DNA from: Bdellovibrio sp. ZAP7
Lineage (GTDB): Bacteria > Bdellovibrionota > Bdellovibrionia > Bdellovibrionales > Bdellovibrionaceae
Length of the DNA: 64,000 bases
Assembly (NCBI RefSeq): GCF_006874645.1
Contig: NZ_CP030082.1
Coordinates: forward strand, 3,658,001-3,722,000
Direction: 5' to 3'
Within the stretch, counting starts at the first letter, position 1. Every line of letters begins with the position of its first letter. Of the stretch, positions 5,450 through 17,876 are shown in pieces. A model generated the notes under the pieces. It did not search any database. It had not been told where the DNA came from and worked only from the letters and a program-made list of their open reading frames with translations. Position numbers and translations under genes: made by a program.

Positions 5450-7336
5450 CTATTCAACAGTCACGGACTTCGCAAGGTTGCGTGGTTGATCCACGTCGTA
5501 ACCCAAGCTTGATGCCAAGTGATAGCTCATTAATTGCAACGGAATCACTGACAAAATCGTGTTCGTTGTCCAGTGAGCTTTCGGCATGGCCAAATAGTAT
5601 TCGCTGATACCACGAAGTTTTTCGTTTTCACCCGTACCGATAGAAATGATTTTACCACCACGCGCACGAGCTTCTTCCAGGTTGCTGATTGTTTTTTCGT
5701 ACCAGTGGTCTGTTGGAGCCACCATCACGATTGCCATGCGCTCGTCGATCAAGGCTAAAGGACCGTGCTTCATTTCGCCGGCAGCATAGCCTTCCGCGTG
5801 CATGTAAGCCAACTCCTTCAACTTCAAAGCACCTTCCATCGCGATCGGATAGCTTGTGCCACGACCCATGTACAAGAAACCACGGAACAGCTTCAATTTA
5901 GCCGCTGCTTCGTCGAAGTACTTGTCATAAACCAGGACGCTTTCCATTTGCGCTGGAGTCGCTAGCAAGCTTTGTACAAGTTCTTTTTCTTCCTTAGCTT
6001 CCATCACGCCACGGCTGCGAGCCATTGCCACTGCCACGCAGTTCAAGACCGCCAGTGTTGATGTGAAGGCTTTTGTCGAAGCCACACCGATCTCAGGACC
6101 CGAGTTCATGTACAAATGACCATGAGCTTCACGATCGATTGTGGAGTTGCGCACGTTACAGATACTCATTGTTGTTGCGCCCGCTTCTTTTGACATACGG
6201 ATAGCTGCCAATGTATCTGCCGTCTCGCCGGATTGAGAGATCGTCATCACCAAAGTTTTTGGTGGGATCACTGGATTGCGGTAACGGAATTCAGAAGCCA
6301 CATCCACTTCAACGGGGATGCGAGCCAATTGTTCGATCAAGTATTTACCGACAAGACCTGCATAGAAACTAGTTCCGCAAGCGATGATGAATACACGTTC
6401 GATACCTTTGAAAACTTCCTGAGTTTTCGCCCAGTCCGCTTTTGAATCAAGCTCTTCCAATTTTTGAACAGATTGACCACCGAAGCCCACATTTTTCAAA
6501 GCCACATTGAAGGCTTCTGTATTGACGTGTGGTTCGATCGCAGCAGCCACAGCACGTGGTTGCTCATAAATTTCTTTCAACATGTAGTGAGCATAGCCTT
6601 GTTTTTCGACCATCTCAGGATTCCAGTTCAACTCAACTGATTTTTTTTGGATAGGGAAACCATTGGCAGAAAAGAACTCGACCTTGCTGCCTTTGATGTT
6701 TGCGATCTCACGATCATCCAGATACACGAAAGTTTTTGTGTATTGGATCAATGCTTGAACGTCCGAAGCGACAAACACTTCATCTTTACCCAAGCCCACA
6801 ACCAATGGAGGACCATCTTTGAAAGCGATCAGGTGATCCGGTTCTTTATCCCACATAACCAGGATCGAGAAGGCACCGCGAAGTTTTGTCAAAGTCGACT
6901 CGACGGCCTTATAAAGATCTTTGGTATTTTCAATTTCGTTGGCGATCAAATGCGCCACCAACTCAGAGTCTGTGTCGGAAGTGATCTCTGCACCTTGAGC
7001 CAAAAGCTCTTCGCGGATATCAAGGTAATTTTCGATGATACCGTTATGAACCAGATTGATGCCACGAACTTGATGGGGATGGGCATTGCGCTCAGAAGGC
7101 TTCCCGTGAGTTGCCCAACGCGTATGACCGATACCCAAGTGGCCATCGAATTTTTCGTTTACTAGTTTTTCTTCAAGGTTTTTTAGCTTTCCTTGAGCAC
7201 GCACACGTTTCGTTGCGCCTTTATCAAGGATTGCGATACCCGCGCTGTCATAGCCACGGTATTCAAGCTTTTTCAAACCACTGATAATGATGTCTTTGGG
7301 ACTTTGAGGTCCAAGGTACCCTACGATTCCACACAT
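5450..7336 (-). CDS. glmS: Glutamine--fructose-6-phosphate aminotransferase (isomerizing)
   Basis: The enzyme makes glucosamine-6-phosphate from fructose-6-phosphate and glutamine, the first committed step to UDP-GlcNAc. The 628-residue length is normal. Residues 1-220 are the class II glutamine amidotransferase domain, with the N-terminal nucleophile Cys2 in MCGIVGYLG and the HTRWATHG motif. Two SIS sugar-isomerase domains follow, marked by ACGTSFYAG and SQSGETADT. The end is close to the usual KSVTVE. The start lies 27 bp downstream of the glmU stop, so the two genes form an operon for cell-wall and LPS precursor supply. No ribozyme or riboswitch is visible in the short intergenic gap. Confidence 0.97.
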   Translation of the reverse strand: MCGIVGYLGPQSPKDIIISGLKKLEYRGYDSAGIAILDKGATKRVRAQGKLKNLEEKLVNEKFDGHLGIGHTRWATHGKPSERNAHPHQVRGINLVHNGIIENYLDIREELLAQGAEITSDTDSELVAHLIANEIENTKDLYKAVESTLTKLRGAFSILVMWDKEPDHLIAFKDGPPLVVGLGKDEVFVASDVQALIQYTKTFVYLDDREIANIKGSKVEFFSANGFPIQKKSVELNWNPEMVEKQGYAHYMLKEIYEQPRAVAAAIEPHVNTEAFNVALKNVGFGGQSVQKLEELDSKADWAKTQEVFKGIERVFIIACGTSFYAGLVGKYLIEQLARIPVEVDVASEFRYRNPVIPPKTLVMTISQSGETADTLAAIRMSKEAGATTMSICNVRNSTIDREAHGHLYMNSGPEIGVASTKAFTSTLAVLNCVAVAMARSRGVMEAKEEKELVQSLLATPAQMESVLVYDKYFDEAAAKLKLFRGFLYMGRGTSYPIAMEGALKLKELAYMHAEGYAAGEMKHGPLALIDERMAIVMVAPTDHWYEKTISNLEEARARGGKIISIGTGENEKLRGISEYYLAMPKAHWTTNTILSVIPLQLMSYHLASSLGYDVDQPRNLAKSVTVE

Positions 7337-13600: not shown

Positions 13601-13619
13601 ATCTCTGAATGAGACAAGC

Positions 13620-13650
13620 AAGCGGCGAAGACACCTTCGCCGCTTTTTTT
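13620..13650 (+). terminator. Rho-independent terminator after the NtrC-type regulator
   Basis: AAGCGGCGAAG (13620-13630) and CTTCGCCGCTT (13635-13645) form an 11-bp perfect stem with loop ACAC. A T-run to 13650 follows. It ends the kinase-regulator unit 20 bp after the stop. Confidence 0.92.
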
Positions 13651-13731
13651 ATAACTAAATTTCCCTGCGAAACCGGACGTTCGACGAGCGATAAAACTTC
13701 ACTTTCCCTCTTAAAATCCGATCAGAATTTG

Positions 13732-15951
13732 ATGCGATTTTTTTTGATTTCATTCATCATTTCAACGGTCTTGGGACTACTTTCGTGCACCAGCGCGCAA
13801 CGTACGCCAAGCTCTGTTGTGACGGATGAAGATCGCATCGTACGTATTCAGGAAATCGACTTAGAGCTTTCCCAGTATTGGAACAACGATTGGCGCTACA
13901 GCCAAAAACTTTTCCAGGTGGCTCCCTCGAAAGTTATGACTTCCAATGCTCCCCTGTTTGATCTTTCTAAGATTTCTGACCCCAAGGTCCGCTCAGAGAT
14001 TGTTCGCTTACAGAATGAGCGACAGTCTTTGCGAGACGCTTTGGCATTCAAATTCGAAGCCCGGGATTGGCAGGGTATCGGTCCTTGGTTCCAAAGTACC
14101 TTTCGTCGCCCTTTGTTTGCCAAAGAAGAAATCATCAGTATTCGTGATCTGGAAGAATTCCGTTTGAACGGGAAGTCGTCAAATCCATTTCCTTTGGAGC
14201 ATCGTTTTTTCGCCGAATACTCTCTGCGCTTTAAGAATGAAATGAAAACCGAGAACGGTGTCTTTGCGAAAGACAAAGACGATCGCATCAACAAGCGCTA
14301 TTTGAAGGCTCGTTTGGAATGTGATGGGGATATCATTGCTCCGGCCAAATACTTTTGGCTGTCCGAAGAGCGCACTCGTATTTACGAGTTCAAATGGTTT
14401 TATGCGAACGAGAATACTCAGAATATTTCTGTGAAGTTTTCTTCCAACGTTTCTCAATGTCGATTCAGCTATTTTGATCCGGAAAAGGCTTCCTCCTGGA
14501 CGAATGGATTTCCGTTGTCCAGTCTGCGTGATGTTTCGCCAGAATGGATGAAGCTGACTCAGCAAATCGATGTGTGCCCACAGATCGCAGGTGGCTTTGG
14601 CAAAAATCCTGAAGGATTTTTTTGGATGCAGGATTTTAACTTCGACACTTGCCCTGAAAGTTTTGATTCATACACGAACCTGCGCGATCCGTATGCGGCG
14701 ATGAACCGTCGGGTGATTTCTTTGACAGGATCTCCGTTGCAACGCCGGGATTTCGATGCCAAGAATCCAATGGCATCTTTGAATTTTGCAAAGGCTCCGC
14801 AATTTGATATTTTATGGGTGTCTTCTTTGAACTTCTCGGCTGACTTTTCGGGAATGGTCACAGCCCGTGCGATTCGCTATCACGCGGAAAAAGGCACGCA
14901 AGTGCGCATTTTAGTTCCGCAAGTAACGATGACTAAGAAGGATCGCGAGATCGTTTCGTGGTTGATGCGTGACCTTCCGAACGTGAAGGTTCAGTACTAT
15001 AAATATTCTGTCACTGATGATGGTGATGGAACATGGTTCGATCGTTTGCACCGTGTGAATCACACGAAGCTCTTGTTGGGATATTCTTTCCGTCAGCCAT
15101 CTGCGAACTTCTTAATTACGGGTGGTCGTAATATTCGCGATTCTTATATTTTCCCAGAAACGCCGTTCTATCGTGCCTATAAGAATTTAAAAAATTATGG
15201 CGATGGCGAAGAGCCCTACATTTACTATAACGACTTTGAAGTCGAACTGCGTGGGACTGAAATCGTCAAACACACACTGGCGCAAATGTTGAATTTCTGG
15301 AACCGTGAGCCCTCCACTCAACGCTTCCGCTCTACCAACGTGAATATCCCGGTGGTTGGCAGCTCGGATCTGGTGACTCGCTTAAATGCGTTACCGAAAT
15401 CAAAGCCCTTGGTTCGTCATGTGATGTCACTGCCTTACTTTGATGGTTATCAGCTCGAGCGTTTCTATATCGAGATGATTGATTCTGCTCAAAAGGAATT
15501 GCTGTTAACGACGCCGTACTTCCGTCCTTCCGTGGCTATCAGCGCGGCCCTGGATCGCGCTCATGCTCGTGGTGTCGCGGTTAAAGTCGTGACCCGTATT
15601 CACTTAGCAGGCGACGGCACTCCGCAAATAGCCGAAGAAGTGAACAAAGAAGGCGTGAACCGCCATCTGAAAAACGTCATGATCTATGAGTGGACTGAAT
15701 CCAATTCGATCATGCACGCCAAGATCCTGGTCATCGACGGCAAACTAAGCTTTATCAGCAGTGTGAATCTAAATCGCCGCAGCTTCATCCACGACACCGA
15801 AAGCGGCGTCTTGATCCTGCACGAACCAACGGCGATGAATCTGCGCAAAGAATTCTTCAGCTACCTAAACCGCAGCCGCCTCATCACAATCGAAGAAAAA
15901 ATAGGCTGGATCAGTGGCCACCTCATCGACTGGGCCGACTCTTACTTCTAA
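13732..15951 (+). CDS. Phospholipase D-like lipoprotein (two HKD motifs)
   Basis: The frame is open from 13609, but that stretch contains a terminator. The ATG at 13732 gives a lipoprotein signal with lipobox LLSC, so the protein has 740 residues and is probably anchored in a membrane by its N-terminal cysteine. Two PLD half-sites are present: NHTKLLLG with H444 and MHAKILVIDG with H662, the latter followed by SVNLNRRSF. PLD-fold enzymes of this type hydrolyse or transfer phosphodiesters such as cardiolipin or other phospholipids. The N-terminal 350 residues are not recognised. The cell location suggests action on envelope lipids, own or prey, but the substrate is inferred. Confidence 0.85.
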   Translation: MRFFLISFIISTVLGLLSCTSAQRTPSSVVTDEDRIVRIQEIDLELSQYWNNDWRYSQKLFQVAPSKVMTSNAPLFDLSKISDPKVRSEIVRLQNERQSLRDALAFKFEARDWQGIGPWFQSTFRRPLFAKEEIISIRDLEEFRLNGKSSNPFPLEHRFFAEYSLRFKNEMKTENGVFAKDKDDRINKRYLKARLECDGDIIAPAKYFWLSEERTRIYEFKWFYANENTQNISVKFSSNVSQCRFSYFDPEKASSWTNGFPLSSLRDVSPEWMKLTQQIDVCPQIAGGFGKNPEGFFWMQDFNFDTCPESFDSYTNLRDPYAAMNRRVISLTGSPLQRRDFDAKNPMASLNFAKAPQFDILWVSSLNFSADFSGMVTARAIRYHAEKGTQVRILVPQVTMTKKDREIVSWLMRDLPNVKVQYYKYSVTDDGDGTWFDRLHRVNHTKLLLGYSFRQPSANFLITGGRNIRDSYIFPETPFYRAYKNLKNYGDGEEPYIYYNDFEVELRGTEIVKHTLAQMLNFWNREPSTQRFRSTNVNIPVVGSSDLVTRLNALPKSKPLVRHVMSLPYFDGYQLERFYIEMIDSAQKELLLTTPYFRPSVAISAALDRAHARGVAVKVVTRIHLAGDGTPQIAEEVNKEGVNRHLKNVMIYEWTESNSIMHAKILVIDGKLSFISSVNLNRRSFIHDTESGVLILHEPTAMNLRKEFFSYLNRSRLITIEEKIGWISGHLIDWADSYF

Positions 15952-15975: not shown

Positions 15976-16098
15976 GGGGGTATCGGTCACACACCCACCC
16001 CTAACATCCCCCCGGGGGTATCGGTCACACAACACTCTCGCTCCTATCCTGGGGTATCGGTCAGCTCTATCCTCCTCTCCTGCCGGGGGTATCGGTCA
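15976..16098 (+). repeat. Cluster of four direct copies of a GGGGTATCGGTCA repeat (REP-like)
   Basis: Four copies of (G)GGGGTATCGGTCA lie at 15976-15989, 16014-16027, 16051-16063 and 16085-16098, spaced 34-38 bp apart. The spacers are pyrimidine-rich, and at least the first two copies can form a small C/G hairpin just before the TATCGGTCA tail. The last copy contains the transposase stop codon. Inverted copies lie on the other side of the gene. Confidence 0.85.
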
Positions 16099-16647
16099 TG
16101 CCCACAACTCCCGTAACTGCTCCTCGGACAATCCCCGCAGTCGCGTTTTAGAATACGGTCGTCCCGCCGCCTCGAGCTCATTCAATTGAATATAATCGCG
16201 CACAACTCGATAAGGCTTATAACCTTTGATAACCCGGGAAAATGGACGATGTTTCCAAACTTTCTCGCCCTCATGCTTCTGCGTGAAGGTATCGGTCAAG
16301 CACTGAGCAAACTGCCCCGCCACAACCCGCAAGAAACTTTGCATCGCCGATCTGCGACCACCTCGCACCAAAAGATGGATATGATCCGTTTGAATAGAAA
16401 CCTGCTCAACCCGCACGAAAAACTTCCGCGAATACTTTCTCAACAGTGCCCGCAATAAATTAAAAGTCCGAGGACTGCGAAGTCCGGCACGGACAGCACC
16501 TTTATTAACTTTAAAAACCAAATGAATAGGATCGGTTGACGATAACGGTCTCGCTCCCCTGCCTTTCGAGGACTTTCGTAAATTACCACCGTAAGAATAC
16601 CGATGCCGCCAATGGGTGTTTAACTGGGAAAAAGTTTGCTGCTTCAT
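16096..16647 (-). CDS. REP-associated tyrosine transposase (RAYT; IS200/IS605-like Y1 HUH)
   Basis: The ATG at 16647 is chosen because AGAGGAG lies upstream; the longer open frame would run through repeat copies. The protein has 183 residues. The HUH metal site is H89-I-H91 in QTDHIHLLV, and Y152 in VRDYIQLNELEA is the likely nucleophilic tyrosine. The upstream strand PIHLVFKV (residues 40-47) is also typical of the Y1 fold. This family makes single-strand nicks at hairpin-bearing sites and includes TnpA-REP proteins that live beside REP repeats. Here four direct repeats follow the gene and two inverted ones precede it. No tnpB gene is present. It is either a domesticated RAYT or a small solitary element. 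Confidence 0.85.
   Translation of the reverse strand: MKQQTFSQLNTHWRHRYSYGGNLRKSSKGRGARPLSSTDPIHLVFKVNKGAVRAGLRSPRTFNLLRALLRKYSRKFFVRVEQVSIQTDHIHLLVRGGRRSAMQSFLRVVAGQFAQCLTDTFTQKHEGEKVWKHRPFSRVIKGYKPYRVVRDYIQLNELEAAGRPYSKTRLRGLSEEQLRELWA
16288..16298 (+). repeat. Internal copy of the GGTATCGGTCA repeat inside the transposase gene
   Basis: GGTATCGGTCA matches the core of the flanking repeats and lies within the coding sequence, where its complement encodes LTDT (residues 117-120). It is in the same orientation as the downstream cluster. Confidence 0.7.
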
Positions 16648-16672
16648 TCGTAACTCCTCTGGGAAAGTCGGT

Positions 16673-16808
16673 TGACCGATACCCCGCGAACGAAGAATGG
16701 GAGATGCAATTTGAGAGGGAGGGCGAAGTACGAAAGATTTTGAATCAGGGATCAAGCTTGTCCGAACTGAGGATTGAATGACCAAAAAACTGAGATGACC
16801 GATACCCC
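16673..16808 (-). repeat. Two inverted copies of the GGGGTATCGGTCA repeat upstream of the transposase
   Basis: TGACCGATACCCC is present at 16673-16685 and 16796-16808, the reverse complement of the downstream cluster. The distal copy is followed by a short hairpin with CGACCC (16812-16817) and GGGTCG (16825-16830). With 15976-16098 these bracket the transposase gene in inverted orientation. Apart from these repeats and an A/G-rich stretch near 16833-16880, the interval 16648-16908 holds nothing recognisable. Confidence 0.85.
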
Positions 16809-16908
16809 AAACGACCCGGGAGTTGGGTCGCGACAAGGTAAAGGTAAAGGAGAAGGTGAAAGCGGAAAAGAAAGTCCTAGGGAGCTTGGGTGGGTGGACG
16901 GAAAAACA

Positions 16909-16936
16909 AAACCCCAGGGGTGCTGGGGTTTTTTCT
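16909..16936. terminator. Terminator (bidirectional) next to the agmatinase-family gene
   Basis: AAACCCCAG (16909-16917) and CTGGGGTTT (16923-16931) form a 9-bp stem. A T-run follows on the plus strand and an A-rich tract precedes it, so it can act in both directions. Its main client is the minus-strand gene ending at 16944. Confidence 0.85.
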
Positions 16937-16943
16937 CGAAAAA

Positions 16944-17876
16944 CTATTTCGTTTTGAATAAGTGGAGCATTTCGAACATTGCGTCCATCCCTGCCAATGC
17001 GGTGATGTCGCCATGATCGAACGGCGGAGAGATCTCCACCACGTCACAACCCACCAAGTTTGGAATTTTGAAGGCGCGGAAGATGCGTTGCACTTCGTAC
17101 GTCGTCAATCCGCCTGGGACTGGCGTGCCGGTACCTGGAGCACAGCTTGGATCCAGGTTGTCGATGTCGTAACTGATATATGTCGGAGTATCGTCGAACG
17201 TCGGCAAAGTTTTTAAAAAGTCGTTGATGTTTTGATTGCGGATTTCGTCGACAGTAATCACGCGAATGCCGTGTTTATTTACGAAATCTAAATCTCCACC
17301 TGCGGCCAAAGGACCACGGATTCCGATTTGGACCATTTTCTTGGGATCGACCAATCCCTCTTCCACGGCATGGCGAGCAAAAGCTCCATGATGGTATTCA
17401 CAACCCCACGCCGCTGGATAAGTATCCAAATGCGCATCAAAATGAATGAACGCCAAAGGCTTGCCGTATTTTTTTCTTAAAGCGCGCAACACCGGAAGCG
17501 TAGTCGAGTGATCTCCGCCAACCGAAACAAACCTTTTATTATGCGACAGAATCTCACCCACAAACTTTTCAATGCGCTCGTAAGTTTGACCTTGATCAAT
17601 AGGAACCGTAGGGCAATCGCCGATATCAGCGACCTTCAATTTTTCAAAGAAATTTTCCATGCGAGTCATGTGAAAACCACGACCCAAAGCAGAAACCTCT
17701 CTCACTTTCGTCGGAGCAAAACGAGCACCGGGACGATAGGAAACCCCGCCGTCATAGGGAATACCAAAGATTCCGACTTCATAGTCCGCGTCAATTGCCA
17801 CATAAGGCAGTCTGAAGAATGTTTTAATCGCAGAAAATCGGGGGAACTCACGTCCGCTCAGAGGTTTGTATTCCAT
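16944..17876 (-). CDS. speB: Agmatinase / ureohydrolase family protein
   Basis: The protein has 310 residues, normal for the arginase-agmatinase family. All manganese ligand motifs are visible: GGDHSTT, FDAHLDTYP (D-x-H-x-D) and SYDIDNLDPS (D-x-D). The PGTGTPVPGGLT segment after the last motif is typical of agmatinases. Agmatinase splits agmatine to putrescine and urea. The exact substrate cannot be settled from motifs, as guanidinobutyrase and formimidoglutamase share them. It is divergent from mutY, with 39 bp between the starts. Confidence 0.88.
   Translation of the reverse strand: MEYKPLSGREFPRFSAIKTFFRLPYVAIDADYEVGIFGIPYDGGVSYRPGARFAPTKVREVSALGRGFHMTRMENFFEKLKVADIGDCPTVPIDQGQTYERIEKFVGEILSHNKRFVSVGGDHSTTLPVLRALRKKYGKPLAFIHFDAHLDTYPAAWGCEYHHGAFARHAVEEGLVDPKKMVQIGIRGPLAAGGDLDFVNKHGIRVITVDEIRNQNINDFLKTLPTFDDTPTYISYDIDNLDPSCAPGTGTPVPGGLTTYEVQRIFRAFKIPNLVGCDVVEISPPFDHGDITALAGMDAMFEMLHLFKTK

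Follow-up and report, generated by a model that had tools for sequence, protein, structure and literature searches.

The window analyzed here, a 64,000-nucleotide stretch of the Bdellovibrio sp. ZAP7 genome, contains a gene for a small Y1/HUH transposase-like protein set between two unrelated genes and surrounded, as well as interrupted, by copies of a short DNA word (Table 1). A longer frame of 246 amino acids, starting with TTG, is a less likely form of the gene than the 183-aa frame starting with ATG, which is preceded by an RBS-like GGAG. The catalytic set of the protein comprises H89-x-H91 and Y152, and the numbering of the catalytic tyrosine in the original prediction agrees with the 183-aa frame. 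The tyrosine motif reads Y152-I-Q-L-N156-E157; all 47 clade genes have H89, H91, Y152 and N156, and the residue that follows the invariant asparagine is mostly glutamate. Profile and fold searches lead to IS200/IS605 and RAYT relatives, the predicted fold matching the TnpA proteins of IS608 and ISDra2 as well as 4er8, although the structure model is modest (mean pLDDT 62.6, with a poor C-terminal part) and the NCBIfam IS200 and REP_Tyr models score under their cut-offs (32 bits against a cut-off of 80 for REP_Tyr_transpos). Because the catalytic residues are conserved, nicking activity has probably been retained.

Table 1. Genes, motif copies and other elements at the transposase locus (positions are those of the window)
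Feature	Position	Strand	Remarks
Phospholipase-D-like gene	13609-15951	+	convergent neighbour; named from reading the translation
Outermost downstream copy	15977..15989	+	exact 13-mer; decayed in G017
Downstream copy	16015..16027	+	exact 13-mer; decayed in G017 by point mutation
Downstream copy, antisense to transposase gene	16051..16063	+	exact 13-mer
Stop-overlapping copy, antisense to gene	16086..16098	+	exact 13-mer; arrangement recurs in several relatives
Y1/HUH transposase-like gene, 183 aa	16096..16647	-	ATG 16647-16645, stop TGA 16098-16096; Pfam Y1_Tnp 1.1e-9
In-gene copy	16286-16298	+	13-mer with 2 mismatches; exact 11-base core 16288-16298
Start-proximal copy, sense to gene	16673..16685	-	11-base core starts 36 nt 5' of ATG
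TTGCA element	16705..16709	-	26 nt 5' of start-proximal motif
Imperfect dyad TCCTCAGTTCGGA	16761..16773	-	consensus TCCGA..TCGGA; ~63 nt 5' of TTGCA
Upstream copy, sense to gene	16796..16808	-	exact 13-mer
Terminator-like hairpin	near 16906-16936		between transposase gene and arginase-like gene
Arginase-like gene	16944-17876	-	neighbour; named from reading the translation

The 13-mer, GGGGTATCGGTCA, is present in six exact copies within 15977-16808 in a scan of the window, and the coordinates confirm the layout described originally, with four direct copies downstream, two inverted copies upstream and one in the gene. The copy at 16086 includes the stop codon of the transposase gene, as the TGA of TGACCGATACC. 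With up to two mismatches the window holds nine matches where 0.56 are expected, a number reached by no shuffle, in keeping with the earlier claim that the recurrence exceeds chance; the match at 7125 falls within a strong coding frame and that at 14072 inside the phospholipase-D-like ORF. A genome-wide search for the 13-mer, the check proposed with the original prediction, was run on the 4.12-Mb single-contig genome with the reversed motif as control. The 13-mer occurs 24 times and its control not at all, the 11-mer occurs 61 times and its control twice, and clusters of the motif are located at seven Y1_Tnp genes out of the ten that the genome contains. These seven genes are mutual paralogs with 61-75% identity to the window protein, and all of them have the motif around the gene and one copy in the coding sequence. 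The remaining three Y1_Tnp genes are without the motif at the gene, and a search for an equivalent motif at the genome's other Y1 genes found none. The logo is GGGGTATCGGTCA in all classes of copies, with little or no conservation beyond the 13-mer. The original claim of a RAYT-related Y1 transposase tied to a specific repeat is thus upheld by the recurrence of this repeat family at paralogs and relatives.

The description of the repeat as REP-like has fared less well. By definition, RAYT/REP systems involve a GT[AG]G foot and a hairpin, usually with many intergenic copies (PMC6006769, PMC8266576). The repeat has no GTAG, as the original prediction had noted, and it also has no GT[AG]G foot; no hairpin or palindrome was found at the copies (mean folding z of -0.18 over 69 copies). 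The copies outside the transposase loci, for which the original prediction proposed to test an occurrence as pairs in intergenic sites, are almost all ordinary codons in good coding frames, such as those for GIGH or GIGQ; these isolated coding-frame copies are background, and genome-wide dispersal in the manner of REPs was rejected. The non-coding exceptions in the genome are one intergenic copy ~90 nt 5' of leuS and perhaps three others; another genome, G022, has a handful of intergenic solo copies, and no convincing transposase remnants were seen beside solo copies. These few solo copies, together with the relatedness of the protein family, the possession of its own repeat by each clade (see below) and the existence of in-frame REPs between the HuH and Tyr motifs of subclass 2.4 RAYTs (PMC6006769), would suit the classical RAYT/REP (REPtron) system dispersing a new REP family that was proposed originally. 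Such a system is nonetheless improbable, considering the missing hairpin, foot and high-copy intergenic spread, the score under the NCBIfam RAYT cut-off, and a tyrosine signature of Y---NE instead of Y---NP.

The most telling feature, overlooked by the original prediction, is that the in-gene copy is codon-frozen and recurs at the equivalent position in almost every relative. On the gene strand its core (TGACCGATACC) provides the codons for (L)T-D-T, and ACC GAT ACC is frozen in the paralogs. Among the 79 invariant residues counted in the seven paralogs (Trp and Met excluded), only four, F61 and T-D-T, are encoded by a single codon throughout, whereas nearly all the others vary synonymously, which argues for selection on the nucleotides themselves. 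The same pattern extends to 47 relatives, down to ~45-55% identity, in which ACC encodes the motif threonines in 93 of 94 cases compared with 27% elsewhere in the same genes, the genes sharing ancestry and so not being fully independent in these counts. The site is embedded in a hypervariable coding loop in the HUH-to-Tyr interval, the length and sequence of which are otherwise free; one relative, L123 in G027, has a weak copy. The sequences hence show nucleotide-level selection on the in-gene site, a constraint that could alternatively serve another factor. The amino-acid pattern of the loop may be partly older than the motif because more distant clades encode a V/L-T-G-A-like peptide at this position.

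The layout is near-constant in the ~47 relatives, with a sense copy on or close to the start codon (43:0 in favor of sense across the clade) and an antisense copy in the coding loop (antisense 49:4); some relatives add a copy over the stop codon, and in several of them the stop TGA consists of the first three bases of TGACCGATACC. Stop-overlapping and downstream copies are antisense in a ratio of 17:1, and distal upstream copies are mostly sense (32:10). The start and in-gene copies are complementary in the transcripts of many genes, and the start copy, GGUAUCGGUCA, might accordingly base-pair in the mRNA with its in-gene counterpart, UGACCGAUACC, and so hide the start codon. We regard this RNA pairing as highly improbable: there is no significant covariation (complementarity of 10.36 against 10.27 when shuffled, P=0.076), and in 11 genes the start copy is GGTATGGGTCA, a C to G change that makes an ATG, while the in-gene copy is uncompensated. 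No conserved RNA structure was detected in the leader, with an RNAalifold energy of 0, and a search of Rfam gave no match.

Two further elements accompany the start-proximal copy. TTGCA precedes 31 of 45 start-proximal copies, where 2.3 would be expected, mostly at a distance of 21-38 nt, compared with 0-1 of the other copies, and a TCCGA..TCGGA-like dyad recurs in the relatives ~85-90 nt upstream of the start-proximal motif. Both elements also precede the G031 genes, which have a different motif, and equivalents are found in L047-L161. As judged by inspection only, TTGCA was rejected as part of a sigma-54 promoter, there being no GG at -24, and of a sigma-70 promoter, there being no -10-like hexamer at the proper spacing. 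In the flanks of four loci (L053, L054, L116 and L129), short tandem repeats (the 7-mer AGAACCG, the 4-mers CCAT/CCTT and a GAATACA type) were observed beside the transposase genes.

The genes with TATCGGTCA form one clade (support 87/88), and outside of it the motif is replaced by others in equivalent positions. Six genes of G031 have GGGCGGTGCC/GGCACCGCCC both upstream and within the coding loop described above, with the exception of L160, which is without an exact loop copy, and several genes of G052 have GGGGCGAGGGG at the same two places. GGGCGGTGCC occurs 28 times in G031 versus 1-5 times in seven other genomes, and GGGGCGAGGGG 36 times in G052, where a fair share of the copies fall in repetitive coding sequence, versus 0 in seven others. 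A repetitive ORF of ~1400 aa in G052 (L276, C3) contains GGGGCGAGGGG in each of its eight units, which may be a coincidence. Across 66 genomes of the family, the median density of the TATCGGTCA core is 5.9/Mb in those with a clade member versus 1.3 in those without (P=2e-8), the reversed control being at about 0.3 in both groups; G032 and G039 are exceptions, the latter holding a divergent member, L150. Equivalent motifs sought in the clades of G034 and G041 were not found. Sequence comparison thus shows a co-divergence of motif and protein clade, for which the simplest cause would be that the protein reads the motif, and suggests that the site read by each protein is contained in its own gene.

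The motif is also encountered at genes unrelated to the transposases. In G022, a small secreted-protein-like gene (L219:1436-1867) has a sense motif in the signal-peptide region and an antisense, in-frame motif 254 bp further on; neither copy is present in its G000, G013 and G017 orthologs. An exact GGGTATCGGTCA-type site is present ~90 nt upstream of leuS in all four motif-clade genomes of the genus (L237-L240) and absent from 19 other genus members; as these leader sites all belong to a single clade, they may have been gained once and inherited. Both cases fit a motif that is usable in trans, and neither is proof of it. They would also fit, as would the closeness of sites to start codons, an operator of an unrelated host regulator that controls the transposase genes by chance. 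That explanation is very doubtful, even more so than REP dispersal, since the motif switches with the transposase clade, its enrichment tracks the presence of the clade, and the leuS site is missing in genus members without the clade.

Comparison of individual loci between genomes provides some insight into their history. Counterparts of the G000 loci are present in G017, one in shortened form, and most paralogs occupy corresponding places in both genomes. Neither G013 nor G022 has an eighth gene that G017 carries, and the junction in G022 is clean; the G000 version of this gene has lost 712 bp, the left breakpoint coinciding exactly with the outermost motif's 5' edge. A single motif-to-next-motif unit distinguishes G000 from G017 at the 906-kb locus. 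At the window locus, G022 has ~15 bp between the flanking genes and no module, and two downstream copies of G000 are decayed in G017. Because of these comparisons, the distal copies are considered weakly constrained and the start and in-gene copies strongly so. The intergenic spot of the window module, by the arginase-like gene, is occupied in G018 (L170) by a Y1/RAYT-like gene of another kind, with the palindrome GGTGCCAGGCACC on both sides, and in G025 (L171) by the palindrome alone (AAAAGGTGCCAGGCACCTTTTG); this is a REP-like system in the same spot.

The main rival to the explanation that we prefer is an autonomous insertion sequence of the TIRtron or IS200-like type, in which the convergent motifs would be terminal inverted repeats and the gene with its flanks would be mobile. 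The gene is indeed bracketed by inverted copies, the overlaps with start and stop resemble the '5'ov/3'ov' layouts of TIRYTs (PMC3733652), the paralog sets are lineage-specific, G022 has an empty site for the 3344k module of G017, and TTGCA, on the start side only, could be a cleavage site. However, movement must be rare, as the paralogs are only 61-75% identical to the window protein and mostly in corresponding places in G000 and G017; target duplication was not seen; the boundary of the empty site is ~94 nt beyond the outermost motif and lacks TTGCA; and transposon ends do not need a codon-frozen copy inside the gene. On balance we consider this explanation unlikely, if less so than the REP and host-operator alternatives.

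The explanation that we prefer, and hold to be rather probable, is a RAYT/TIRYT-like HUH protein with its recognition site in its own gene, probably serving self-directed binding or nicking. The protein is transposase-like, of the Y1 (HUH/tyrosine) type with its catalytic residues intact, and comes from a clade of Bdellovibrionota that has RAYTs and TIRYTs among its relatives; GGGGTATCGGTCA would be its cognate DNA site. This motif is kept at fixed positions of the gene, in sense at the start near TTGCA, antisense in the loop and sometimes antisense over the stop, with the further copies around the gene less constrained. The protein itself would bind or nick the site; with less certainty, binding at the start and in-gene sites may hold down its own expression and, where sites are nicked or recombine with each other, the local DNA may on rare occasions be rearranged, the locus duplicated and a few solo sites produced. 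As the role of the system we prefer autoregulation, accompanied by occasional nick-driven rearrangement, to transposon ends, although the sequences alone would fit either. More tentatively, the protein could be a nuclease-type autoregulator for which the start site and the opposite intragenic site constitute a looped or self-nicked operator pair, a possibility to which we give clearly less credence; if true, protein specificity and coding sequence would co-evolve clade by clade, and other genes could be drafted by gaining the pair. The system bears on what RAYT-type transposases are kept for. Its recognition site is short, locatable, preserved at the codon level and variable between clades, which makes it a simple testable system (13-nt oligonucleotides, synonymous recoding) for deciding between self-regulation and self-copying by these proteins, and the clade motifs offer natural specificity variants for the study of protein-DNA co-evolution.

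Among the papers that could be searched, none was found that links these motifs, or Bdellovibrio, to RAYTs. Shared with RAYT/REPtron systems are the Y1 core with HUH and catalytic Tyr and a repeat family specific to each transposase type, while the foot and hairpin, the many intergenic copies across the genome and the class 2 signature Y---NP (here Y---NE) are absent. The fold and catalytic residues are those of the IS200/IS605 TnpA proteins (IS608, ISDra2), but the class 1 traits, Y---Q and subterminal hairpins, were not found here, nor were near-identical mobile copies. In layout the nearest known system is that of the TIRtrons, or TIRYTs, in which a RAYT-like gene has terminal inverted repeats on either side (Di Nocera et al. 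2013, PMC3733652): there, too, a Y1 HUH gene lies between convergent non-REP repeats, some of them over the gene ends, and the repeat families are limited in number. Some published TIRs carry a GGGG head (GGGGWSAS) (PMC3733652), and the present motifs likewise start with a G-run, the rest being different; unlike TIRYT repeats as described, those reported here are 11-13 nt long, occur also inside the coding sequence and are codon-frozen across many genera. For the in-gene copy the nearest precedent is RAYT (TnpAREP) subclass 2.4 (Quentin et al. 2018, PMC6006769), in which repeats likewise flank the gene and sit in frame between HuH and Tyr, but as palindromic REPs with GT[AG]G rather than as a short non-palindromic word. 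Published precedents thus exist both for RAYT-like genes between TIRs and for RAYT genes that contain in-frame REPs; what is new is the combination of a short non-palindromic word, its near-fixed place and orientation, the freezing of its codons and its clade-specific replacement.
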